Source: Flavobacterium branchiophilum NBRC 15030 = ATCC 35035
Lineage (GTDB): Bacteria; Bacteroidota; Bacteroidia; Flavobacteriales; Flavobacteriaceae
Assembly: GCF_002217205.1 (NCBI RefSeq)
Contig: NZ_MUGT01000007.1
Coordinates: 1-64,000, forward strand
Direction: 5' to 3'
Length of the DNA stretch: 64,000 nt
Shown here: piece after piece, positions 6,909 to 18,407 of the stretch
How the letters are laid out: every line of letters begins with the position of its first letter
How positions within the stretch are numbered: the first letter of the stretch is position 1
The notes under the pieces: model-generated
Database searches by the model: none
What the model was told of the DNA's origin: nothing
What the model saw: the letters and a program-made list of their open reading frames with translations, nothing else
Translations under genes and position numbers: made by a program

Positions 6909-8762
6909 ATGGCACAAGAAACACAATACGACGAAGACAATATTCGCTCGCTCGACTGGAAAGAACACATCCGCATGCGTCCCGGAATGTACATTGGGAA
7001 ACTAGGTGACGGCTCATCGCCAGATGATGGTATCTATATATTACTCAAGGAAGTTCTCGACAACTGCATCGACGAATTTGTGATGGGTGCTGGCAAAACG
7101 ATTGAGGTAAACATCAAAGACAAACTGGTTTCGGTGCGCGATTATGGCCGAGGAATTCCGCTTGGAAAAGTTGTGGATGTGGTATCCAAAATGAATACAG
7201 GTGGGAAATATGACTCCAAAGCCTTCAAGAAATCGGTAGGTTTGAATGGTGTGGGTACCAAAGCGGTGAATGCCCTTTCGAATTATTTTCGAGTAGAATC
7301 GGTGCGGGATAACCAACAAAAAGCGGCTGAATTTTCGGCTGGAAATCTCACATTAGAAGAAGATTTACAAGAATCGACCAAGCGAAAAGGAACGAAAGTA
7401 TCCTTTATTGCTGATGAAACCATTTTCAAAAACTACAAATATCGAAATGAGTATATCATTAGAATGCTCAAGAATTATTGTTATTTGAACACGGGTTTGA
7501 CCATCTATTACAACGGTGAAAAATATTTTTCGGATAATGGATTGAAAGATTTATTGGAAGAAGCCATTCATGCAGATGACATGATTTATTCTACCATTCA
7601 TCTCAAAGGTGAAGACATAGAAGTGGCGTTAACCCACAGTAAAACGCAATATTCTGAAGAATACCATTCGTTTGTAAATGGACAAAATACGACACAAGGA
7701 GGTACCCATTTGGGTGCTTTTCGAGAGGCAATTGTAAAGACCATCAAGGAGTTTTATAACAAACCTTTTGAGGCTTCGGATATTAGAAAATCTATTGTTT
7801 CTGCGGTTTCCATCAAGGTAGAAGAGCCCGTTTTTGAGAGTCAGACCAAAACTAAATTGGGTTCTACAGAAATTGGTCCGAATGGGCCATCGGTACGTTC
7901 GTTTGTAAATGACTTTATCAAGAACAAGCTGGATAATTTTTTACATAAAAATCCAGAAGTAGCCGATGCATTATTGCGAAAAATATTGCAAGCAGAAAGA
8001 GAGCGAAAAGAACTATCAGGCATACGTAAATTGGCAAAAGACCGTGCTAAAAAAGCGAGTTTGCACAACAAAAAATTGCGTGATTGCAGAGTGCATTTGC
8101 CCGATATAAAAAACCCTCGATATTTGGAAAGTACTTTGTTTATCACCGAGGGAGATTCGGCTTCGGGTTCGATTACCAAGTCAAGAGATGTGAACACCCA
8201 AGCCGTTTTTAGTTTGCGTGGAAAGCCATTGAATTCGTATGGAATGACCAAGAAAATTGTGTATGAAAACGAAGAATTTAACTTGCTACAAGCTGCATTG
8301 AATATCGAAGAGTCGATGGAAGATTTGCGTTATAACAATATCGTGATTGCCACCGATGCCGATGTGGATGGAATGCACATTCGGTTGTTGTTGATTACGT
8401 TTTTTCTTCAATTTTTTCCTGAATTGATCAAAGATGGGCATTTGTATATATTGCAAACCCCACTTTTTCGGGTGCGAAACAAGAAAGAAACGATTTATTG
8501 TTACAGCGATGAAGAACGAGTAAATGCTATAGAGAAGCTAAAACCCAAACCCGAAATCACCCGATTCAAGGGATTAGGAGAGATTTCGCCTGACGAGTTC
8601 AAGCATTTTATTGGAGCCGATATTCGATTAGATCCTGTGATGTTAGACAAAGCCACTTCAATTGAAACCTTATTGGAATTTTATATGGGTAAAAACACAC
8701 CCGACCGCCAAATGTTCATCATCAATAATTTGAAGGTGGAATTGGATGTGGTGGAGAAGTAG
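6909..8762 (+). CDS. parE: DNA topoisomerase IV subunit B
   Basis: A 617-residue type IIA topoisomerase ATPase subunit, the compact length typical of Bacteroidota ParE. The GHKL ATPase motif [10 protein letters not shown] sits near residue 48 and GRGIP follows. The transducer segment includes [13 protein letters not shown]. The TOPRIM domain carries the catalytic Glu in TEGDSASGS (about 415) and the metal site DADVDG (about 481-486). It works with ParC to decatenate replicated chromosomes. The presumed partner gene starts about 7 kb downstream on the same strand, displaced by accessory genes. ParE rather than GyrB is chosen because its neighbour subunit lacks the GyrA box whereas the gyrA gene at 28-30.6 kb has one. 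Confidence 0.93.
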
Positions 8763-8926: not shown

Positions 8927-11071
8927 ATGCTTTTTGCAACATTAAATGATCAACAAATAGAAGCGGTCAAAGCAGAACAAAAACGCATTTTAGTTTTGGC
9001 GGGGGCAGGCTCGGGCAAAACCAAAACCTTGTTGCAAAAAATAAAATATTTGGTCGAAATAAAAAAAGTGCAGCCCTCTGAAATTTTGGCTATTACTTTT
9101 ACCAAAAATGCGGCCAATGAAATGATTGATCGTTTGATAATTGAATCGGATAAAACGGGTATTTATGAAAGCATTATTTTTGATAAAAGGATTTCTTTAG
9201 AGGAAAAAAACAAACAACGCTTTGTTTATATCAAAAAATTCAAATGGATTGAAAACCTGACCATCAGAACGTTTCATAGTTTGTGTTACAAAATCATGCA
9301 AAATTATGGCGTAAAAGAGTTTGACAATAAGTTCAAAATCATTTCTGAAGATAAAAAAACAGAAACCGACCCGATGTTTACTTTGGTTGCCAATGAAACC
9401 GTTTTTGAAGTTTTTCATAAAATTATCATTAGAAATTGCGAAAAAAACAACGATTATTTATTACAACTCAAAAAATACATCTTGGATTATATTGTCGATA
9501 AAATTCAAATCGACAAAAAACAAGTTTCCAATTTATACAACGAAGGTAAAATTTATTCCACGCTGAGAGGCGAAAAAGTACGTTCAAAATCAGAGCAATA
9601 CATTGCCGATTGGCTTTTTCGGCACAACATAGGTTATCAATATGAACCCAATATCAACATCAAAGATTTTGGTTTCAAACCCGATTTTTATATTGAAGAT
9701 GCTAATATTTATTTGGAACACATTAGCAATAAAAGCTATCCGTCGAAAAATAAAGCAGAACAATTTGAAAAAGGTAATATTTTATGCGTAAAAACGTATG
9801 AAAAAATGACTGAAGACACCGCCCTTTTCAATCATTCTTTAGACAAAATAATCAAAGGTAGGCTATCCGAAAATTATTCAAGCTCTCGAATTTTGTCCTA
9901 TCAAGAAGAATTTAGCCGTTATCAAGAAGAGGTAAAAGATTTTATTTTTCAAGCCATCCGAATTGGTGATATGCTGAAAGTGGAAGATGCCAATTGGGAC
10001 AAGATTTACGAAAAATCACAAAAAGACCAACACGAACGCATTCGGAATTTTTATCAATTAGTAATGCCGTTAGTAATTGATTATCAGCAATATTGTATTG
10101 ATAAATCGTATTTGGATTTCAATGATATGATTATCAGAACCGTATCTTTGTTTAAAAAGCATAAAGACATTTTGCAGAAATTTCAAAAGCAATACCAATA
10201 TGTTTTGGTGGATGAATTCCAAGATGTCAACAACCTGCAAGTAGCATTGATTCAACAATTGATTACTCCCGCTACCCAGCTTTTTTGTGTGGGCGATGAT
10301 TGGCAAAGCATTTATGGTTTCCGAGGGTCGAATGTCGATTGTATTTTGAATTTTGAAAAAACCTTCAAACGCAGTAAAATTATAAAACTTAACTTAAATT
10401 ACAGAAGTACACAAAGCATTGTAGGAGCTAGTAATGAGGTAATTAAGCACAATAAATTCAAAATAGAGAAAGAAATATTTGCCTCCAAAATGTCGGAATT
10501 TAAGATAGTTGAATTTGCCGGAAACAACAAAGAAGAGAATGTTGAATTTTGTGTAGAGAAAGTCAGAGAATTGCTTGAAAAAGGATACAAAAATGACGAT
10601 ATTTTATTCTTATATCGCCGAAGCAAGATGTACCAACCCTATTTTTTTGCGTTCAGAAATGAAAACATCAAAGTGCAGGGCAAAACCATTCATGCTTCAA
10701 AAGGACTGGAAGCGAAAGCGGTTTTTATCGTAGGACTGACCGATGGATATGGTGGTTTTCCGGATATTTGGCTCGAAGACCGAATATTTCAAGTCATCAA
10801 AACCGCCAATCATGACAGTTTGATGGAAGAAGAACGCCGTTTGTTTTATGTGGCAATAACCCGAGCCAAAGACCAATTGTATTTGATAACAGAAAAAGGA
10901 AATACTTCTCGATTTTTAAAAGAAATTCCAGACACATTTAAAGTTAATTATCAAGATATTGTGCCACAAATAGAGACGTTTCAATTGTGCAAAAAATGCA
11001 AAAAACAAGTAGAAAAACAATTTGAATTTTGTCCGTTTTGTGGGAAGAAAAAAGTAAATAAAGTGTTTTAA
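8927..11071 (+). CDS. UvrD/Rep-type helicase with inserted nuclease-like domain and zinc ribbon
   Basis: A 714-residue superfamily 1 DNA helicase. The motifs run in order: I AGAGSGKT (25-32), Ia AITFTKNAANEM, II VDEFQDV, III VGDDWQSIYGFRG, IV LNLNYRST, V IHASKGLEAKAVF, VI RRLFYVAITRAKD. Between Ia and II, at about residues 215-295, lies an extra module (KSEQYIADWLFRHNIGYQYE, then KPDFYIEDANIYLEH). It has the E...PD...E pattern of a PD-(D/E)XK endonuclease fold: E223, D253, E264. The lysine of the E-x-K motif is replaced, as in several 'iEhfG'-like relatives. The C-terminus has a C-x2-C...C-x2-C zinc ribbon (CKKCKK...CPFCGKKK). The next gene begins two bases after the stop. Likely in DNA repair or anti-phage defence; which is not decidable here. 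Confidence 0.88.
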   Translation: MLFATLNDQQIEAVKAEQKRILVLAGAGSGKTKTLLQKIKYLVEIKKVQPSEILAITFTKNAANEMIDRLIIESDKTGIYESIIFDKRISLEEKNKQRFVYIKKFKWIENLTIRTFHSLCYKIMQNYGVKEFDNKFKIISEDKKTETDPMFTLVANETVFEVFHKIIIRNCEKNNDYLLQLKKYILDYIVDKIQIDKKQVSNLYNEGKIYSTLRGEKVRSKSEQYIADWLFRHNIGYQYEPNINIKDFGFKPDFYIEDANIYLEHISNKSYPSKNKAEQFEKGNILCVKTYEKMTEDTALFNHSLDKIIKGRLSENYSSSRILSYQEEFSRYQEEVKDFIFQAIRIGDMLKVEDANWDKIYEKSQKDQHERIRNFYQLVMPLVIDYQQYCIDKSYLDFNDMIIRTVSLFKKHKDILQKFQKQYQYVLVDEFQDVNNLQVALIQQLITPATQLFCVGDDWQSIYGFRGSNVDCILNFEKTFKRSKIIKLNLNYRSTQSIVGASNEVIKHNKFKIEKEIFASKMSEFKIVEFAGNNKEENVEFCVEKVRELLEKGYKNDDILFLYRRSKMYQPYFFAFRNENIKVQGKTIHASKGLEAKAVFIVGLTDGYGGFPDIWLEDRIFQVIKTANHDSLMEEERRLFYVAITRAKDQLYLITEKGNTSRFLKEIPDTFKVNYQDIVPQIETFQLCKKCKKQVEKQFEFCPFCGKKKVNKVF

Positions 11072-11073
11072 AA

Positions 11074-11619
11074 ATGGCAGTAACAAAAGACGTAAAGGAG
11101 AAAATTGCCAGTTTGTCAAAAGATGAATTGGTAAAAATAGTTTTGAAAAGTATTTCAAAAGATAAACTGTTTTTGGATTATATTCAATTGAACTATTTTA
11201 AAAATGACCTCAATGAAAATGATATTTTTGAGGAATACAAGCAAAAAATAAACAAACTAATTTACAAGAGATACAAAGGATATGCAGATGAAGAGAAAGC
11301 GGCACATTTTATAACTGCCTGCAATAAAGAGTTAGCGAATTTTGAAAAATTAAGCAAAAATTATGAGTTGATAGTTGCGCTGATTTTATTGGTTTTAGAA
11401 AAAGCTTCATCAGATTTTGATGCAGGATTTGGCACTTGTTTTACTGCATTTGATTACAAGTTTACGTTGTTATTAAAAAAAGTGATTCGAATAATCAATA
11501 CCAAAATGCACGAAGACATGAAAATAGAATATAGCCAAGAAATTAATAATTATCTTAAAGCCATAAAGGAAAATTCAGCCTATTTGGATTATGTTTATGA
11601 ATTGCCAAAAGAAATTTAA
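11074..11619 (+). CDS. Small helical protein coupled to the helicase
   Basis: A 181-residue, lysine-rich and mostly helical soluble protein with no signal peptide, membrane segment or catalytic motif that I can name. The N-terminal pattern KEKIASLSKDELVKIVLKSI loosely recalls DUF6155-type proteins, but this is weak. It starts two bases after the helicase stop codon, so the two are almost certainly co-translated. That suggests a partner or regulator of the helicase. It could instead be an unrelated passenger. Function unknown. Confidence 0.75.
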   Translation: MAVTKDVKEKIASLSKDELVKIVLKSISKDKLFLDYIQLNYFKNDLNENDIFEEYKQKINKLIYKRYKGYADEEKAAHFITACNKELANFEKLSKNYELIVALILLVLEKASSDFDAGFGTCFTAFDYKFTLLLKKVIRIINTKMHEDMKIEYSQEINNYLKAIKENSAYLDYVYELPKEI

Positions 11620-11685: not shown

Positions 11686-12807
11686 ATGGTATCCAAAATA
11701 AGATTTAAAAACTTCAAACTTTTCAAAAACTGGCAAACGCTAGAAATCAAACCAATTACTATTTTGATTGGGAAGAATAATAGTGGGAAAACAGCGGTTT
11801 TGAAGTTGCCTTTTATCATTAATTCTATTATTGAAAATAAAAAAGTAAATACAACAATTAAATTAAAAAAAAGTTTTCCAGATTTTATTGAATTAGGTAC
11901 AGACTTCATTGACTTAGTATATAACAGAAATAATATTGGTTTTTTGGAATTTGAGCTTGAAAAAGAAAGTTCTAAATTATATACTGCATTAGGTAAAGAG
12001 GGCATGTTGAATTTTAAATTCAATGAAGAAGAAATTATCTTAGAAAATGATCCTAATTTAAATAAATTGAAAGCTGTTTTAGCAACCTTTAAATATAGTA
12101 TTGATTACATTGGAGGAATTAGAATTGAGCCTCAATATAATTATAATTTTAAAGGAATTGAAAACGAAATAATCGGATTGAATGGAAACTATGCGTATGA
12201 TATTTTGATTAATGATTTAAAAAATAATGACAAAACATTAATTAGAAAAATTGACAAGTGGTATAACGAAAATTTTGAAGGCTGGAATTTTGATGTGATT
12301 GAAAATAAAGAATCAACCGAAGTAAATTATTCTATTGTTATTTCCAATAATAAAATAGATTATATAAACATTAAACAAACAGGACAAGGAATTCATCAGG
12401 TTTTACCTTTAATAACTAGAAGTTTCTTAACCGAAGGATTTCCAAATACAATTATTATAGAAGAACCTGAAACTCATCTTCATCCAGCAGCTCACGGTAA
12501 TTTAGCGGAACGCTTTGTAGATTCTTATTTAGAGGACAATAACAAACAATATTTAATAGAAACGCATTCTCAAAATTTTGTTTTAAGATTGAGACGATTG
12601 GTAGCAGAGGGAAAATTAAAACCAGAAGATTTAGCTATTTATTATGTAGATTTTAAAGAAGAGGAATATGTGAGTGTTTTAAAACCAATAAATGTAAGTT
12701 TAGATGGAAGTGTGGACTGGTGGCCTGATGGAGTTTTTGGAGAAACTATAATAGAAACAAGAGCCATTATGAGTGCAAATATAAATGATGTAAGAAATGT
12801 GGATTAA
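11686..12807 (+). CDS. AAA/ABC-type ATPase of the DUF3696 class
   Basis: A 373-residue ATPase of the SMC/RecF/OLD-like group. It opens IRFKNFKLFKNWQTLEIKPI and has Walker A IGKNNSGKTAVL (about 28-39). An ABC-signature-like segment TGQGIHQVLPLI precedes Walker B TIIIEEPETHLHP, and the switch histidine is in LIETHSQNFVLRLRRLV. The C-terminus has the DUF3696 mark WPDGVFGE. Unlike OLD-family proteins it has no fused TOPRIM domain; that activity appears to be in the next gene. The stop overlaps the next start by 11 bases, showing translational coupling. Relatives drive AriA/AriB-like and Gabija-like defence (family knowledge). A defence role here is inference. Confidence 0.88.
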   Translation: MVSKIRFKNFKLFKNWQTLEIKPITILIGKNNSGKTAVLKLPFIINSIIENKKVNTTIKLKKSFPDFIELGTDFIDLVYNRNNIGFLEFELEKESSKLYTALGKEGMLNFKFNEEEIILENDPNLNKLKAVLATFKYSIDYIGGIRIEPQYNYNFKGIENEIIGLNGNYAYDILINDLKNNDKTLIRKIDKWYNENFEGWNFDVIENKESTEVNYSIVISNNKIDYINIKQTGQGIHQVLPLITRSFLTEGFPNTIIIEEPETHLHPAAHGNLAERFVDSYLEDNNKQYLIETHSQNFVLRLRRLVAEGKLKPEDLAIYYVDFKEEEYVSVLKPINVSLDGSVDWWPDGVFGETIIETRAIMSANINDVRNVD

Positions 12808-13933
12808 TATTACAAAAAATACTTTTGAAAATTCAGATTTTAAAGGGTTAAATTTTTTATATCAAATTATTTCATACAAACCAACATCAAGTATTAAACC
12901 TCGATATAATATTATAATTGACATTGAGAAAGTAAAAAACACTTCTAATTTTCAATTATTAAAAACGATAGAGCCAAGCCTTGAGGAATTTTTAGAAGCA
13001 GAATATAATGTTTATGTAATAAATGGTGCCGATAGTCCTTTTAAGGTTACTTCACAAATTGGAAACCAAAATTATACCATTGAAGAAGCCATTGCTTTTT
13101 TCAATCAACCTGTTTCTATTGTTTTAGAAAATAACAAAAATGATGCTTCGTTCATTTTAGCTATAATTAAACATTTTGGGAAAGTTAACGGTTACAATAA
13201 AGCACAAGAGCATATAGATAATGGCTGGTTGGTGTTTGAAAACGCAGGCGGATGCACTAATATTCCTAATTTTATGGAAGGTTTTTTACATCGATTTAAA
13301 GAATTAGCAAAAACCAATAAACGTAGTGTTTCTCATTATTTTAGAGGAATTATTTTCATAGATAGTGATAAAGAATTTGAAAATCAGCCAATAAAAACTA
13401 CACATAAAAGTTTACTAAACAAACTCAATCAGTTGGAAATTGATTCATCGAATGTTTTAGATGCAAATGATAAGTTGAAAAACCAAAATGATAAAATACA
13501 TATCCTTGAAAAAAGAATGATAGAAAATTACCTTCCTAAAGTAGTTTTTCAAGAAATTGCAAGACAAAATAGTGTAAAAACCGATGTAGATTTAAATGAT
13601 TGGTTAGATGCCTATCTCAATCTAAACGAAAACAAAAAATTAGATTTTATTAACATTCCTGATGGAAAATTATTAGGAAATAATCATCCTATTCCAACAG
13701 AACTTAACAATTTATGGGCTAATCTTGGTGGAAACTTTCAAAAATTAGATAATGGTTTTAAATTCTATGGTTTTAAAGAAAATGGAAGTTTAAAATCACC
13801 AAAAGAAGGTAGTTTCAAAATTGAAATGCCAAAATGGTTTCAAAAAGAGCTTATAACAAAAGAAAACTTATCTTCAAGAGCAGGAAATGATGAATTAGAA
13901 AGAATTGTAAACAAAATAAATCAACTCTTATGA
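12797..13933 (+). CDS. TOPRIM/DUF4435-like protein, partner of the AAA ATPase
   Basis: A 378-residue protein with no obvious close family. Its spaced acidic motifs resemble the TOPRIM fold of DUF4435 and OLD proteins. They are E111 and D116 in SIVLENNKNDASFI (the VEGxxD position), D189 and D191 in FRGIIFIDSDKEF, and EKRMIENYLP at 238-247, a signature typical of DUF4435. The first 100 residues look like a separate N-terminal domain. It overlaps the ATPase gene by 11 bases and the DUF262 gene by 4 (ATGA). By analogy with AriB and OLD TOPRIM domains it would be the metal-dependent nuclease effector. This is inferred from motif spacing only. Confidence 0.7.
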   Translation: MWINITKNTFENSDFKGLNFLYQIISYKPTSSIKPRYNIIIDIEKVKNTSNFQLLKTIEPSLEEFLEAEYNVYVINGADSPFKVTSQIGNQNYTIEEAIAFFNQPVSIVLENNKNDASFILAIIKHFGKVNGYNKAQEHIDNGWLVFENAGGCTNIPNFMEGFLHRFKELAKTNKRSVSHYFRGIIFIDSDKEFENQPIKTTHKSLLNKLNQLEIDSSNVLDANDKLKNQNDKIHILEKRMIENYLPKVVFQEIARQNSVKTDVDLNDWLDAYLNLNENKKLDFINIPDGKLLGNNHPIPTELNNLWANLGGNFQKLDNGFKFYGFKENGSLKSPKEGSFKIEMPKWFQKELITKENLSSRAGNDELERIVNKINQLL

Positions 13934-15597
13934 TGGATTTAGAAGAAAAAATAAAAATAAAACCTGATGATGGATTTATTGCTGATTATATTTCTGATTT
14001 TTTGAATGGAAAATTACAAGTTCCTGTTTTTCAAAGAGATTTTGTTTGGAATACGGAACAAAAATTGGAGTTATTAAGAAGTATTGCTAAAGGTTATCCT
14101 ATTGGTTCTGTTCTAATTTGGAAACCTAATCAAGAAACAATAGATATTTTCCAAAATATAGATAAAGATTTGACACTTGGTGGCTATGAAGTTCCTCCAA
14201 AAAATTATGATTCTTTGTATATTTTAGATGGTTTTCAAAGGCTTTCTACCTTAATTGGTTGTTTATTAAATCCAAATTTTGCAGAACAAAAAGGTATTAA
14301 AAGAAACAATTCCATTTGGCACAAGGAGTTTAACTTCGTTTTCAATTTATTAGATAATGATTTTGAAGTTGTTAGAAGCAAAGATTTAAGTAAATTATCA
14401 ACTTATCAAATACCTGTTTATAAATTAGTAGATAGTAAAAATTTTTATGCTTTCCAAACAAGTCTTTTTAATAATGATATTTCAGACGATGTTGAAACTT
14501 TGTTACAAAGGTATCAAGAAATTGGAGATAGATTTTCAAAATACAAGATTCCCAATGTTAAATTATACGGTGGAACAATAGCAGAAGCAATAGAAGTCTT
14601 TCAAAAATTAAACTCGCAGGGTTCAGAAATAACTACAGATTGGCTGATTTCAGCAAGCTTAATAAAAAAAGACCCCAATTTTAGATTAGGTGATGAGATT
14701 ACGAATTTGTTAGAAAACAAACTAAAGCCTTTTAACTTTGATAAACTAAAAAGAGAAGTAGTCTTAAATTGTATCATCAATTCATTTGAAGATGTTTATT
14801 TTGATGTAATTTCAAAAAACAGTACCAAGAAAATTGAAAATTTGGTACAAAAAGAAGACTTTATTGAAGTAGCAAAATTTACATTTAAATCTATAATTAA
14901 AACCGTAGAGTTTTTGTTTAAAGAATTAATGGTTATAGATGTTAAATTATTGCCTTATAGCAACCAATTTATTTTTATAACTTACTTTTTTAATAAAACA
15001 GAAAATCCTACTACAGAACAATTGAAAGTTTTAAAAAATTGGTTTTGGGTAACAACCTATTCTAATTATTTCACTATTTATAATTTAAGTAAACAAAGAA
15101 CAGCATTCCAAACGTTTCAAAGATTTGTTTTTAGTAATGAAACTCCTATTTTTATTGATGAGAACAAAAAATTTGCAATTGAAAAATTCCCTAAAAAAAT
15201 CTCTATGGGAAGTGTAAGAGGAAAAGCATTAGCTTTATTTATGCTTAATTATTCTCGTGAATTCAAACCTTTAGAAAATGGAAATGAAACAGATTTTAGA
15301 ACTGCAAAAATTTTTGATGTTTATACTTTTAAAAACAAAGATGAAATTTTAGTGTTTGAAAACTCATCAGAAAATACAAATGTATTTTACGAAAAATTTG
15401 ATCCAAAAAATATTTCATTCCCCGATGAAAAATACTTTTTAGGAAACTTTAATGATAATCCAGATGAGTTTTTGAAAGAAAGAAAAGAAAAAATTATTGA
15501 AGAAGAAATGAAGTTTGTAAAGTTTTTAGGTGTAGATTATTTTAATGATGATATTATTTCTGATGAAGATACTAAAGAAGATTGGAATAATTATTAA
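13930..15597 (+). CDS. DUF262 (GmrSD/ParB-like) protein, third gene of the trio
   Basis: A 555-residue protein. The N-terminal DUF262 domain has VPVFQRDFVWNTEQKLELLRSI (about 31-52), YPIGSVLIW and the DGxQR-type motif ILDGFQRLSTLIG (D100-R104). In GmrS and BrxU this motif forms the NTPase/ParB-like site. The C-terminal half has no clear DUF1524 HNH motif, so it resembles the GmrS half rather than a complete GmrSD nuclease. The tail is acidic and helical (KERKEKIIEEEMKFVKFLG). Its start lies inside the stop of the previous gene (ATGA), with a second in-frame ATG right after. A nucleotide- or modification-sensing role is plausible but unproven. Confidence 0.85.
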   Translation: MMDLEEKIKIKPDDGFIADYISDFLNGKLQVPVFQRDFVWNTEQKLELLRSIAKGYPIGSVLIWKPNQETIDIFQNIDKDLTLGGYEVPPKNYDSLYILDGFQRLSTLIGCLLNPNFAEQKGIKRNNSIWHKEFNFVFNLLDNDFEVVRSKDLSKLSTYQIPVYKLVDSKNFYAFQTSLFNNDISDDVETLLQRYQEIGDRFSKYKIPNVKLYGGTIAEAIEVFQKLNSQGSEITTDWLISASLIKKDPNFRLGDEITNLLENKLKPFNFDKLKREVVLNCIINSFEDVYFDVISKNSTKKIENLVQKEDFIEVAKFTFKSIIKTVEFLFKELMVIDVKLLPYSNQFIFITYFFNKTENPTTEQLKVLKNWFWVTTYSNYFTIYNLSKQRTAFQTFQRFVFSNETPIFIDENKKFAIEKFPKKISMGSVRGKALALFMLNYSREFKPLENGNETDFRTAKIFDVYTFKNKDEILVFENSSENTNVFYEKFDPKNISFPDEKYFLGNFNDNPDEFLKERKEKIIEEEMKFVKFLGVDYFNDDIISDEDTKEDWNNY

Positions 15598-15704: not shown

Positions 15705-18407
15705 ATGAAAGACGAACAAGACAACATCATTCCAAACGAAGACGAAAACAACGATTCTATGGAAGTAAATGACAACACTAACAAAGGCTTTGAGGACATA
15801 GTTTCCTCAGGTGGTCACCATTTTTACGACAATAACGAAAACCCCGAAGACACCATTACCAAAGTAACGGGAATGTACAAAGATTGGTTTTTGGACTATG
15901 CATCGTATGTGATTTTAGAACGGGCTGTTCCCGCAATTGAAGATGGTTTTAAACCTGTTCAAAGACGTATTATGCACTCAATGAAGGAGTTAGATGATGG
16001 GCGCTATAATAAAGTAGCAAACATCGTTGGGCACACCATGCAGTATCATCCTCACGGAGATGCGAGTATTGGTGATGCTATGGTGCAAATTGGACAAAAA
16101 GATTTGATCATCGATATGCAAGGAAACTGGGGAAATATTCTCACAGGGGATAGTGCCGCTGCTTCTCGATATATTGAAGCTCGGATTTCTAAATTTGGAC
16201 ACGATGTGCTTTATTCTCCAAAAATTACGGAATGGGGCGTGTCTTATGACGGTCGTCGTGCGGAGCCAATTAACTTGCCTGTGAAATTTCCACTTCTTTT
16301 GGCTCAAGGTGCAGAGGGAATTGCAGTTGGATTGTCCACCAAAATTTTACCCCACAATTTCAATGAATTGATTGATTGTTCTATCAAAGTGTTGAAAGGA
16401 AAACCGTTTACATTATATCCTGATTTTCCAACCGCTGGAATTGCCGATGTATCCAATTATAATGACGGTTTGCGTGGTGGAAGAGTTCGTGTACGGGCAA
16501 AAATTGGTCAATTGGATAAGCAAACGTTGGTCATTACACAAATTCCTTTTTCGACCAATACGGGAACTTTGATAGATAGCATCCTGAAAGCCAATGAAAA
16601 AGGCAAAATTAAAATCAAAAAAATTGAAGACAACACGGCTGCTGAGGTTGAAATATTAATTCACCTCCCACCTGGTGTTTCTCCTGATAAAACCATTGAT
16701 GCTTTGTATGCATTCACGGCTTGTGAAACCTCTGTGGCGCCTTTGGGTTGTGTCATTGAAAACCACAAACCATTGTTTATCGGTGTTACGGATATGTTGC
16801 GAATTTCGACAGACAGAACTGTTAATTTGTTGAAAAGAGAACTCGAAATTCAGCTAGATGAACTCGAAAACAAATGGCATTTTTCTACCCTAGAAAAGAT
16901 TTTCATCAGAGAAGAAATGTACATCGATTTTAAATTGTATTCTGATCGAGAATCATTATATAAATACATGTATGACCGTTTTGAACCTTTCAAAAAATCA
17001 TTTGTTCGGGAAATTAATGATGATGATTTGCAAAAATTAACCCAAATTCCAATGATTCGAATCACCCGTTTTGATTCGGATAAAGCGGATGAAGCCATTG
17101 CAAAATTGGAAGCCGATATGGAACAAGTGAAGCATCATTTGGATCATATTATTGATTATACCATCGATTTTTTCCAAAAATTAAAAGACAAATACGGAAA
17201 AGGCAGAGAACGTCAGACAGAATTGCGAAGTTTTGATACCATCGAAGCAACAAAAGTGGTGCTTAGGAATACCAAATTGTATGTCAATAAAGAGGAAGGT
17301 TTCTTTGGAACTGGACTGAAAAAAGACGAATATGTGGCTGATTGCTCGGATATAGATGATGTAATTGTCTTTTTGAGAGATGGAAAAATGATGATTTCTA
17401 AAGTAGATGAGAAAAAATTCGTAGGAAAAGACATTATACATATTGCAGTTTTTGATAAAAACGACAAGCGAACCATTTATAATATGATGTATCGCGATGG
17501 CAAAAACGGTTCCACATTCATCAAGCGATTTAATGTTTCTGGAATTACAAGAGATAAATTTTATGATTTAACTCAGGAAAAACCAGGTTCGATGGTTTCC
17601 TATTTTTCTGCAAATCCAAATGGGGAAGCTGAAGTAGTTACTATTCTTTTAAGGCAAGTGGGTAGTGTAAAAAAATTGAAATGGGATGTTGATTTCTCTG
17701 AAATTGCTATAAAAGGAAGGGCTTCTCGTGGAAATACCATTACCAAATATCCAATTAAAAAAATCGAGTTAAAAGAAAAAGGAATTTCTACTTTATTGCC
17801 AAGAAAAGTTTGGTTTGATGAAACGGTGCGTAGATTGAATACAGAAGCACGAGGAGAATTGTTGGGCGAATTTAAGCCCAATGACAAAATATTAATCATC
17901 AACCAGTCGGGAAAATTGAAAGTAATTACTCCAGAGTTGACCACTCATTTTGATGACGACATGATAGTTTTGGAAAAATGGCATCCGAAAAAACCCATTT
18001 CTGCCATTTATTTTGACGGAGAAAAGGAAAAATATTTTATTAAAAGATTTTTAGTTGATTTTGAAAATAAAGAAGAAACCTTTATTACGGAACACGAAAA
18101 ATCGAAATTGGAAGTTGTTGCTACAGCGTATAAACCCGTAGCTGAATTGGTTTTTGCCAAAGTAAAAGGCATTCAAAAAGAAAACCAAATCATTAATATG
18201 GAAGCATTTATTGCCATAAAAGGTTTTAAAGCTTTAGGAAATCAACTCACTGCAGATAAATTAAAACAAGTCAATTTATTGGACCCTTTGCCTTATGATG
18301 AACCAGAAGAAATTGTAATACCAGAAGGATTACCACTTTTTGAAGACGATTCAAAAACTGAATCAGACCTTGATGAAGACGGACAAACTATTTTAAGTTT
18401 AGATTAA
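15705..18407 (+). CDS. parC: DNA topoisomerase IV subunit A
   Basis: A 900-residue breakage-reunion subunit of topoisomerase IV. About 55 acidic, disordered N-terminal residues precede the core (DWFLDYASYVILERAVPAIEDGFKPVQRR). The winged-helix segment includes YHPHGDAS, and the catalytic tyrosine is Tyr156 in AAASRYIEAR. A coiled segment (about 430-490) and a beta-pinwheel C-terminus follow. The pinwheel lacks the GyrA box (Q/N-R-x-GGKG) that is present in the gyrase gene at 28.1-30.6 kb, which supports ParC. It forms the ParC2ParE2 decatenase with the parE product. A bidirectional hairpin terminator follows directly. Confidence 0.92.
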   Translation: MKDEQDNIIPNEDENNDSMEVNDNTNKGFEDIVSSGGHHFYDNNENPEDTITKVTGMYKDWFLDYASYVILERAVPAIEDGFKPVQRRIMHSMKELDDGRYNKVANIVGHTMQYHPHGDASIGDAMVQIGQKDLIIDMQGNWGNILTGDSAAASRYIEARISKFGHDVLYSPKITEWGVSYDGRRAEPINLPVKFPLLLAQGAEGIAVGLSTKILPHNFNELIDCSIKVLKGKPFTLYPDFPTAGIADVSNYNDGLRGGRVRVRAKIGQLDKQTLVITQIPFSTNTGTLIDSILKANEKGKIKIKKIEDNTAAEVEILIHLPPGVSPDKTIDALYAFTACETSVAPLGCVIENHKPLFIGVTDMLRISTDRTVNLLKRELEIQLDELENKWHFSTLEKIFIREEMYIDFKLYSDRESLYKYMYDRFEPFKKSFVREINDDDLQKLTQIPMIRITRFDSDKADEAIAKLEADMEQVKHHLDHIIDYTIDFFQKLKDKYGKGRERQTELRSFDTIEATKVVLRNTKLYVNKEEGFFGTGLKKDEYVADCSDIDDVIVFLRDGKMMISKVDEKKFVGKDIIHIAVFDKNDKRTIYNMMYRDGKNGSTFIKRFNVSGITRDKFYDLTQEKPGSMVSYFSANPNGEAEVVTILLRQVGSVKKLKWDVDFSEIAIKGRASRGNTITKYPIKKIELKEKGISTLLPRKVWFDETVRRLNTEARGELLGEFKPNDKILIINQSGKLKVITPELTTHFDDDMIVLEKWHPKKPISAIYFDGEKEKYFIKRFLVDFENKEETFITEHEKSKLEVVATAYKPVAELVFAKVKGIQKENQIINMEAFIAIKGFKALGNQLTADKLKQVNLLDPLPYDEPEEIVIPEGLPLFEDDSKTESDLDEDGQTILSLD

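Follow-up and report, generated by a model that had tools for sequence, protein, structure and literature searches.

A stretch of 64,000 nucleotides from Flavobacterium branchiophilum NBRC 15030 = ATCC 35035 (NCBI RefSeq assembly GCF_002217205.1, contig NZ_MUGT01000007.1, positions 1 to 64,000 of the forward strand; hereafter the window) contains, at 8927..11071 on the + strand, a gene for a 714-residue superfamily 1 (SF1) helicase of the UvrD/helicase IV type, called from its open reading frame (ORF), Pfam and AlphaFold. Results showed that the motor of this protein carries inside its domain 1B an additional domain of about 107 residues with a predicted nuclease fold (residues 206-312, 9542..9862, + strand), delimited by a model of the insert together with structure and profile matches. 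The motor, the insert, its predicted fold, the conserved acidic residues, the wide distribution of the architecture and the accessory status of the gene were all established by computation. With moderate confidence, we consider the protein to be most likely a single-chain helicase-nuclease that destroys foreign or aberrant branched DNA, either in defence or in the exclusion of plasmids and phages. Proteins that fuse a helicase to a nuclease have central roles in double-strand-break repair and in defence against phages. In RecB and AddA, the SF1 examples known best, the nuclease is C-terminal; a nuclease inside 1B would be positioned at the fork, cutting in register with unwinding.

The motor itself was readily recognized. 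Pfam matched UvrD-helicase (E 9.1e-64) and UvrD_C (E 1.6e-25), and the SF1 motifs could be read along the + strand as GAGSGKT (motif I or Walker A, residues 26-32, 9002..9022), TFHSL (115-119), DEFQD (motif II, 429-433, 10211..10225), GDDWQSIY (456-463, 10292..10315), NYRST (491-495), HASKG (589-593) and VAITRA (642-647). The AlphaFold model of the whole protein, built from 32 rows, had a predicted local distance difference test score (pLDDT) of 83.8 and a predicted template modelling score (pTM) of 0.80, and the top structural matches of the motor were UvrD, PcrA and Rep (Z 33-36), with AddA at Z 28 and RecB at Z 24. The NCBIfam models for PcrA, UvrD, Rep, helicase IV, AddA and RecB all matched the protein, far under their cut-offs (PcrA 299 against 911; helicase IV, PRK11054, 248.3 against 543; AddA 144.8 against 707.65; RecB 141.1 against 696.05). 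UvrD, PcrA and Rep share the SF1 motor with the window protein, but they possess a 2B domain and no nuclease.

The sequence-only reading, made from the letters of the window alone, had described the helicase core as interrupted between motifs Ia and II by a segment of about 80 residues lying in domain 1B/2B. Alignment to PcrA (1pjr) bears out the interruption, with extra residues between TFH and motif II, while correcting its dimensions: the extra domain is longer, about 107 residues, includes a further invariant acid (E240), and belongs to 1B and not to 2B, as the 2B region spans 196 residues in PcrA and its equivalent only 15 in the window protein. From TFH to residue 370, the window protein is 183 residues longer than PcrA, of which about 107 constitute the nuclease domain, and the full-length AlphaFold model has a low-confidence stretch at residues 199-206, directly N-terminal to the insert. 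The spacing from TFH to motif II is 314 residues in the window protein compared to 131 in E. coli UvrD, 163 in E. coli helicase IV and 138 in the PcrA-type protein of the same genome, and a profile of the insert found no significant match in these three proteins (best E 0.43, with --max).

We asked whether this spacing follows the nuclease among relatives. In the 67 relatives that could be parsed by motif patterns, to which the test is limited, the TFH-to-DEFQD spacing was bimodal: the 55 that match the nuclease profile have 308-429 residues and the 12 that do not have 118-163, none of the 67 combining a long spacing with absence of the profile. A chance insert or a low-complexity spacer is ruled out by this bimodality together with the conservation of the domain. 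Neither of the two outcomes named as refuting in the sequence-only reading, a fold unlike that of a nuclease or occurrence in ordinary housekeeping helicases without active-site conservation, was obtained, since the insert alone is predicted to be nuclease-like, is absent from the three housekeeping proteins named above and has conserved active-site residues.

Conservation was counted in 63 insert-bearing helicases, obtained from 72 de-duplicated insert-bearing ORFs by excluding nine without helicase motifs (six long ORFs truncated by the end of the locus, two short ones and L077). As these 63 rows include near-copies and were chosen with a 13-insert profile, the counts describe a biased sample, to which the spacing test is a partial answer. 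The first acid, E223 (9593..9595), lies in the first nuclease helix (residues 221-232) and is Glu in 62 of the 63 rows, with one gap; the same count was obtained for E240 (9644..9646), part of an invariant YE pair. D253 (9683..9685), in a PDF triplet just ahead of the second strand (254-256), is Asp in 63/63. In the third strand, EH replaces ExK (E264-H265, 9716..9721), with E264 in all 63 rows and H265 in 59, the other four having Tyr. Finally, K276 (9752..9754), in the second helix (274-282), is Lys in 62/63 and may stand in for the motif lysine; all of these codons are on the + strand. The acidic residues are conserved to the same degree as the helicase motifs, and E223, Y239, E240, P252, D253, F254, E264 and K276 are invariant in the window protein and the first 12 relatives, which are 25-87% identical. 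Moreover, mean identity to the window protein over 17 further close orthologues is 64% in the insert, compared to 65% in 1A and 47-54% in the flanking parts of 1B, while distant inserts show 22-35% identity to the window's insert.

E223, D253 and E264 had been singled out in the sequence-only reading as a PD-(D/E)XK pattern. The three acids are where it placed them and are conserved, but the canonical lysine is missing: position 266, two residues past the third acid, where it would be expected, is Ile in the window protein and Phe in 49, Tyr in 8, Val in 3, Ile in 2 and Trp in 1 of the 63 rows. Vsr and the EDxHD enzymes likewise deviate at the position of the motif lysine, and because of this the lack of the (D/E)XK lysine excludes the canonical motif and not the superfamily. 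H265 or K276 may take over the lysine's part, and the active site looks like that of Vsr/EDxHD enzymes rather than a textbook PD-(D/E)XK site.

The predicted structure of the insert points in the same direction. Modelled on its own (38 rows), the insert reached a pLDDT of 86.0 and a pTM of 0.80, with the succession helix, three strands, helix, strand, helices; the core order of PD-(D/E)XK enzymes (helix, three strands, helix, strand) was present in both models, in which E223, D253, E264 and K276 are predicted to take up the PD-(D/E)XK layout. VIA-align, which covered the chains ranked by Foldseek only, so that families outside that ranking are not excluded, matched the insert to I-Bth0305I (Z 11.1, 2.4 A over 90 residues), NGO0050 (Z 10.6) and Vsr (Z 9.1, root-mean-square deviation 2.7 over 97), and further to Bax1 (8.4), archaeal Hjc (7.7) and TnsA (7.4). 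Foldseek itself placed I-Bth0305I first (E 0.015, TM-scores 0.63/0.71), then Vsr (0.35/0.26), a mitoribosomal protein and NGO0050, with T7 endonuclease I at rank 25 (E 0.26).

Profile comparisons added a second line of evidence. A profile of 49 inserts run against the PDB found four distinct endonuclease I sequences (E 4.1e-5 to 6.8e-4; 2pfj is T7 endonuclease I), the sole other match having an E of 1, and Pfam Phage_endo_I weakly matched 5 of 13 inserts (best E 0.00099). The PHROG model for Holliday junction resolvases matched 44 of the 49 inserts at E <= 0.1 (best 3e-9, 4.8e-5 for the window's own). At the same threshold, several models of candidate defence proteins matched, namely two of PDC-S68 (49/49 and 48/49), PDC-S69 (45/49) and HEAT_CxxC_PDDEXK (44/49), the window insert scoring 2e-14 and 1.2e-11, 6.8e-11, and 9.7e-5, respectively. 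The relatives of the insert include branch- or mismatch-directed enzymes, that is Holliday junction resolvases and Vsr. I-Bth0305I and Vsr correspond to the insert by fold and T7 endonuclease I by profile, but these enzymes are free-standing or fused to DNA-binding modules and do not reside inside a helicase. I-Bth0305I is a member of the EDxHD group, described in a review as resembling PD-(D/E)xK enzymes in active-site motif and mechanism (PMC3943268). The name EDxHD would fit the insert's histidine at its lysine-less site, a likeness drawn from the name and not residue by residue.

We also noticed the same nuclease domain in ORFs of 1215-1306 residues (L036-L041, partly seen) and in frames of 270-311 residues (L034, L035); the helicase motif patterns found nothing in these frames, the long ones being seen in part only.

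Alternatively, the insert may have the PD-(D/E)XK fold but no catalytic activity, serving only to bind DNA or to act as a wedge, in the way of some Vsr-like domains that bind RNA. This would agree with the missing motif lysine and with the presence of FASTKD4 and mitoribosomal Vsr-like domains among the structural matches; we know of no nuclease activity for those domains. Against this, E223, E240, D253 and E264 are kept in every ungapped row despite the low identity of the distant inserts, and E264-H265 could plausibly be a variant active site, so that we judge a dead fold to be improbable.

The protein ends in four cysteines, C688, C691, C702 and C705 (10988..11041, + strand), read earlier as a zinc ribbon. 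The cysteines hold up, being present in 18/18 close orthologues; the ribbon is less certain, as no Pfam zinc model exceeded its cut-off in the window protein (Zn_ribbon_15 at 24.4 bits against 28.9) and AlphaFold is unsure of residues 681-710 (block means 45-53). A topoisomerase-type zinc ribbon is C-terminal in seven of the eight insert-bearing relatives scanned, and a C-terminal ribbon is common across the insert-bearing branch.

To place the protein among SF1 helicases, we built trees on the motor with the insert columns removed. In a tree of 83 rows, 61 insert-bearing rows and four helicase IV-like rows were separated from the rest with a Shimodaira-Hasegawa-like approximate likelihood ratio (SH-aLRT) support of 98. 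The same split received 99/98 in a tree of 59 of these rows, from which long-branch and near-copy rows had been dropped, and 99 in a third tree to which two housekeeping helicases, E. coli UvrD and the genome's own PcrA-type protein, were added. In the 59-row tree, E. coli helicase IV and two relatives were nested among insert-bearing rows, within a group of ten (95/94) and a group of forty (100/100). In the third tree, the exact sister of helicase IV had low support (16). Monophyly of the insert-bearing helicases without helicase IV was rejected (42 against 19 rows, log-likelihood lower by 105.45, approximately unbiased p-AU 2e-92), with the qualification that this test used a quick tree and that the tool warns of long branches.

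On these trees the trait needs two changes, and a scenario of two gains is no more costly than a gain followed by a loss. As the insertion site and the nuclease type are identical, we prefer the second, with the insert probably gained once, before the window clade separated from the other insert-bearing rows, and lost once, in E. coli helicase IV. In addition, Helicase_IV_N weakly matched (E 2e-4; 21.8 bits, below the cut-off of 24.5) an insert-bearing helicase from an Acinetobacter plasmid (L011).

E. coli helicase IV (HelD, b0962; PF12462 plus UvrD) is a poorly understood enzyme. It shares the GDDWQ and HASKG motifs with the window protein and falls in the same branch of the trees, but it lacks the nuclease insert (TFH at 274, DEFQD at 437), and its N-terminal Helicase_IV_N domain (PF12462) is absent from the window protein, which begins just before the helicase core. 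The sequence-only reading had called an internal nuclease unusual compared to the C-terminal nuclease of RecB and AddA; the contrast stands, yet the layout is widespread in the branch related to helicase IV.

We then looked at how the gene is distributed. Strong matches to the whole protein occurred in 3 of 149 genomes of the family and 16 of 398 of the genus, the window's own genome being counted in both, so the nuclease-helicase gene is accessory and patchy in the genus. Orthologue matches with a single stop (one TAA, one TAG, one TGA) were not called frame breaks, as a match may overrun the natural stop, while G680, with seven stops, and G693 were excluded from the neighbour analysis. Across the phylum, the insert profile matched 23 of 395 genomes (E <= 1e-6), partly in other long or short proteins. 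The closest named relative (L009) comes from a Flavobacterium metagenome-assembled genome and is 87% identical; distant near-full-length relatives were found on Acinetobacter and Vibrio plasmids, on a plasmid of the haloarchaeon Halorhabdus and on phage or viral contigs, the viral scan covering the best 80 of 231 relatives. Bacteroidota share this architecture with gammaproteobacterial plasmids, a plasmid of a haloarchaeon and viral contigs.

Only one neighbour recurred in more than two of the 18 close-orthologue loci when five ORFs on either side were considered. It is a protein of 210-226 residues whose gene directly precedes that of the helicase, in the same orientation, in 8 of the 18, and the one member scanned, from L007, proved to be an RNase HI with a hybrid-binding N-terminal domain (Cauli_VI E 3.6e-19, RNase_H E 7.3e-7). 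From the RNase HI stop to the first start codon of the helicase ORF there are 5-53 nucleotides in seven loci, and the two ORFs overlap in the eighth. At E <= 1e-40, this RNase HI was found in 2 of 150 sampled genomes of the genus, both of which carry the helicase with the pair adjacent (helicase carriers among the 150 were not counted). Among 15 chosen carrier genomes it was present in ten (E <= 1e-10), adjoining the helicase in eight, of which G134 has a second copy elsewhere, and only elsewhere in two; an RNase HI of this family was not found in the examined loci of more distant relatives. The upstream RNase HI genes lie at L056:7279-7908 and in L216, L217, L218, L219, L220, L224 and L225.

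This partnership provides a concrete hypothesis for the substrate, RNA:DNA hybrids, and with the resolvase-like domain it may leave room for a role in R-loop processing or repair. The enzyme could serve repair or the replication fork, resolving the cell's own branched intermediates or R-loops in the way of a helicase IV or a UvrD to which a resolvase has been added. The kinship of the nuclease with Holliday junction resolvases and Vsr is in line with such a role, as are the position of a chromosomal enzyme, E. coli helicase IV, inside the same branch and the RNase HI partner, which suggests R-loops. However, a gene present in only 16 of 398 genomes, with relatives on plasmids, on viral contigs and beside defence systems, is not what would be expected of such an enzyme, and we consider this explanation rather unlikely, if worth keeping in mind. 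The accessory status, the mobile or viral settings and some defence neighbours favour foreign DNA as the target.

The genomic position of the gene in the window is that of an insertion. It lies between two genes for DNA topoisomerase subunits, a parE-like gene on the left (6909..8762) and a parC-like gene on the right (15705..18407), present in 39/41 and 40/41 genomes of the genus, respectively, and named from sequence rather than by family search. The distance between them is 6945 nucleotides in the window, whereas the 36 other genomes sampled from the genus that have both genes on a single contig show 23-2033 (median 170.5). Therefore, the helicase and the genes that follow it are added cargo. 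These are a 181-residue ORF (11074..11619), without a Pfam match at E <= 0.01, and a three-gene candidate defence module (11686-15597) that combines an AAA/DUF3696 protein, a protein of unknown type and a DUF262 protein: an AAA ATPase, PDC-M55A (11686..12807, E 4.2e-72; NsnB second, 1.1e-52), PDC-M55B (12797..13933, E 1.4e-18) and the GmrSD_N/DUF262 protein PDC-M55C (13930..15597, E 1.7e-74; PF03235 E 4.1e-23). All the genes of the interval and its borders are on the + strand. PDC-M55A resembles NsnB, which we take to be a component of Menshen.

The arrangement could mean that the helicase acts only together with the neighbouring PDC-M55 candidate system, or with a Gabija- or Menshen-like one, of which it would be an essential subunit: the genes share a strand, and the 181-residue ORF starts 2 nucleotides after the helicase stop and is followed by PDC-M55A/B/C. 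We regard this as very unlikely. In the Flavobacterium locus L009, the 87%-identical orthologue occupies the same parE-parC site with other small genes and no PDC-M55, and therefore the helicase and PDC-M55 are separate cargo. In the other 17 close loci, neither the PDC-M55 genes nor a homologue of the 181-residue ORF occurred within five ORFs of the helicase. These loci rule out PDC-M55 as an obligate partner.

Some other insert-bearing helicases do have defence systems beside them. The G345 homologue sits in a BREX locus (BrxL, PglZ, PglX) and the G511 homologue adjoins a separate GajA/GajB pair, while in four further loci whose neighbours were scanned singly nothing was counted as defence. 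When neighbours were scanned together, 107 ORFs from 15 of 16 loci matched 225 PADLOC families and 103 control ORFs from 13 of 14 regions matched 66; as these counts are of families and not of proteins, and are inflated by the numerous GajA/GajB models, they give weak support only. In the BREX locus at L042:3098-17475, the insert-bearing helicase is located between PglX and PglZ/BrxL, on the strand opposite to them.

Several observations weigh against a helicase-nuclease directed at foreign DNA. The insert lacks the motif lysine, having Ile here and mostly Phe or Tyr in relatives; it has no Pfam match at E <= 1 in the window protein and no Foldseek match below E 0.001, with a mitoribosomal protein at rank 3, and VIA-align also matches it to mitoribosomal proteins (Z 10.1 and 9.9) and FASTKD4 (8.5). 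Concerning the neighbourhood, defence genes were seen in the window and in only two of the six other loci scanned individually; of the ten neighbours in question, five lack a match to any PADLOC model, and one more, the L045 protein resembling GajB, groups with PcrA. Random control regions also match 66 PADLOC families, including DNA methyltransferases, and PDC-M55 is missing from the parE-parC locus of the nearest relative. Moreover, the window's copy has no adjacent RNase HI, nor does its genome contain one at E <= 1e-10, and both the cutting activity and the role of the window protein are predictions from sequence and models.

Taking these points together, we still favour the helicase-nuclease acting on foreign or aberrant branched DNA, and the following mechanism can be proposed. 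The protein joins a UvrD-type motor, devoid of 2B and situated on the branch that leads to helicase IV, to a predicted Vsr/T7-endonuclease-I-like PD-(D/E)XK domain placed in 1B behind a flexible hinge. It would load on single-stranded or branched DNA and move 3' to 5', the C-terminal zinc ribbon probably gripping the DNA. Because 1B touches the duplex in front of the fork in UvrD and PcrA, the nuclease would be kept at the junction and might nick, there or close by, either the duplex or the displaced strand as the motor unwinds. We thus infer the coupling of unwinding and cutting in one chain that the sequence-only reading had put forward. In part of the clade, the dedicated RNase HI would remove the RNA of RNA:DNA hybrids.

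A broader scenario can be offered as a tentative possibility. The helicase IV branch may ancestrally have been a fork-cutting helicase-nuclease, which one clade in Flavobacteriaceae would pair with a dedicated RNase HI in a two-gene module dismantling the R-loops of invading replicons, with RNase HI removing the RNA, the helicase stripping the hybrid or fork and the nuclease cutting; E. coli helicase IV would then be a relic, a motor without its blade.

Helicases joined to a Vsr-type nuclease have been described in conflict systems. In the giant SF1 protein MTES_1575, which typifies one such group, Vsr occupies 1810-1990, close to the C-terminal winged helix-turn-helix domains (PMC3710099), and in the SF2 helicases of ARMADA, YprA, it is at the C-terminus (PMC12458937). 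Both resemble the window protein in combining the two activities, but in the available parts of these sources neither is described as a 1B insert. Helicase IV and Gram-positive HelD are compared with respect to their 1B position in a 2021 HelD study, whose main text nowhere uses the word 'nuclease' (PMC8655204). In the open-licence literature that was accessible, through searches only partly directed at the insert, we found no account of UvrD/helicase IV-type proteins with a nuclease within 1B, and none in which helicase IV is seen as a descendant that lacks the nuclease. Helicases with a Vsr-type nuclease at or near the C-terminus are thus already known, and the 1B-inserted arrangement appears new in the literature so covered.

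Comparison with other SF1 systems further separates the window protein from its analogues. AddA, RecB and AdnAB unite an SF1 helicase and a PD-(D/E)XK nuclease in one chain, with the nuclease C-terminal, and work in complexes; in the window protein, of 714 residues, the nuclease is inside 1B and the C-terminus is the four-cysteine ribbon. The model for Gram-positive HelD (HelD_BACSU), which is involved in RNA polymerase recycling, scored 65.5 against a cut-off of 419. The best PADLOC match of the protein is GajB of Gabija (E 1.6e-60, with RTasHel at 2.1e-60), itself a UvrD-like helicase, and the best stretches of the 25 PADLOC models listed start at residue 309 at least, thus not resting on the insert. 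Membership in Gabija was rejected, as no GajA adjoins the gene and the nearest ATPase is best matched by PDC-M55A, its best GajA model reaching only E 4.7e-12. As a last observation on the motor, the Chryseolinea orthologue (L010:6965-9208) reads GAGSGNT, with Asn in place of the Walker A lysine, which may reflect a natural dead motor or a sequencing error.

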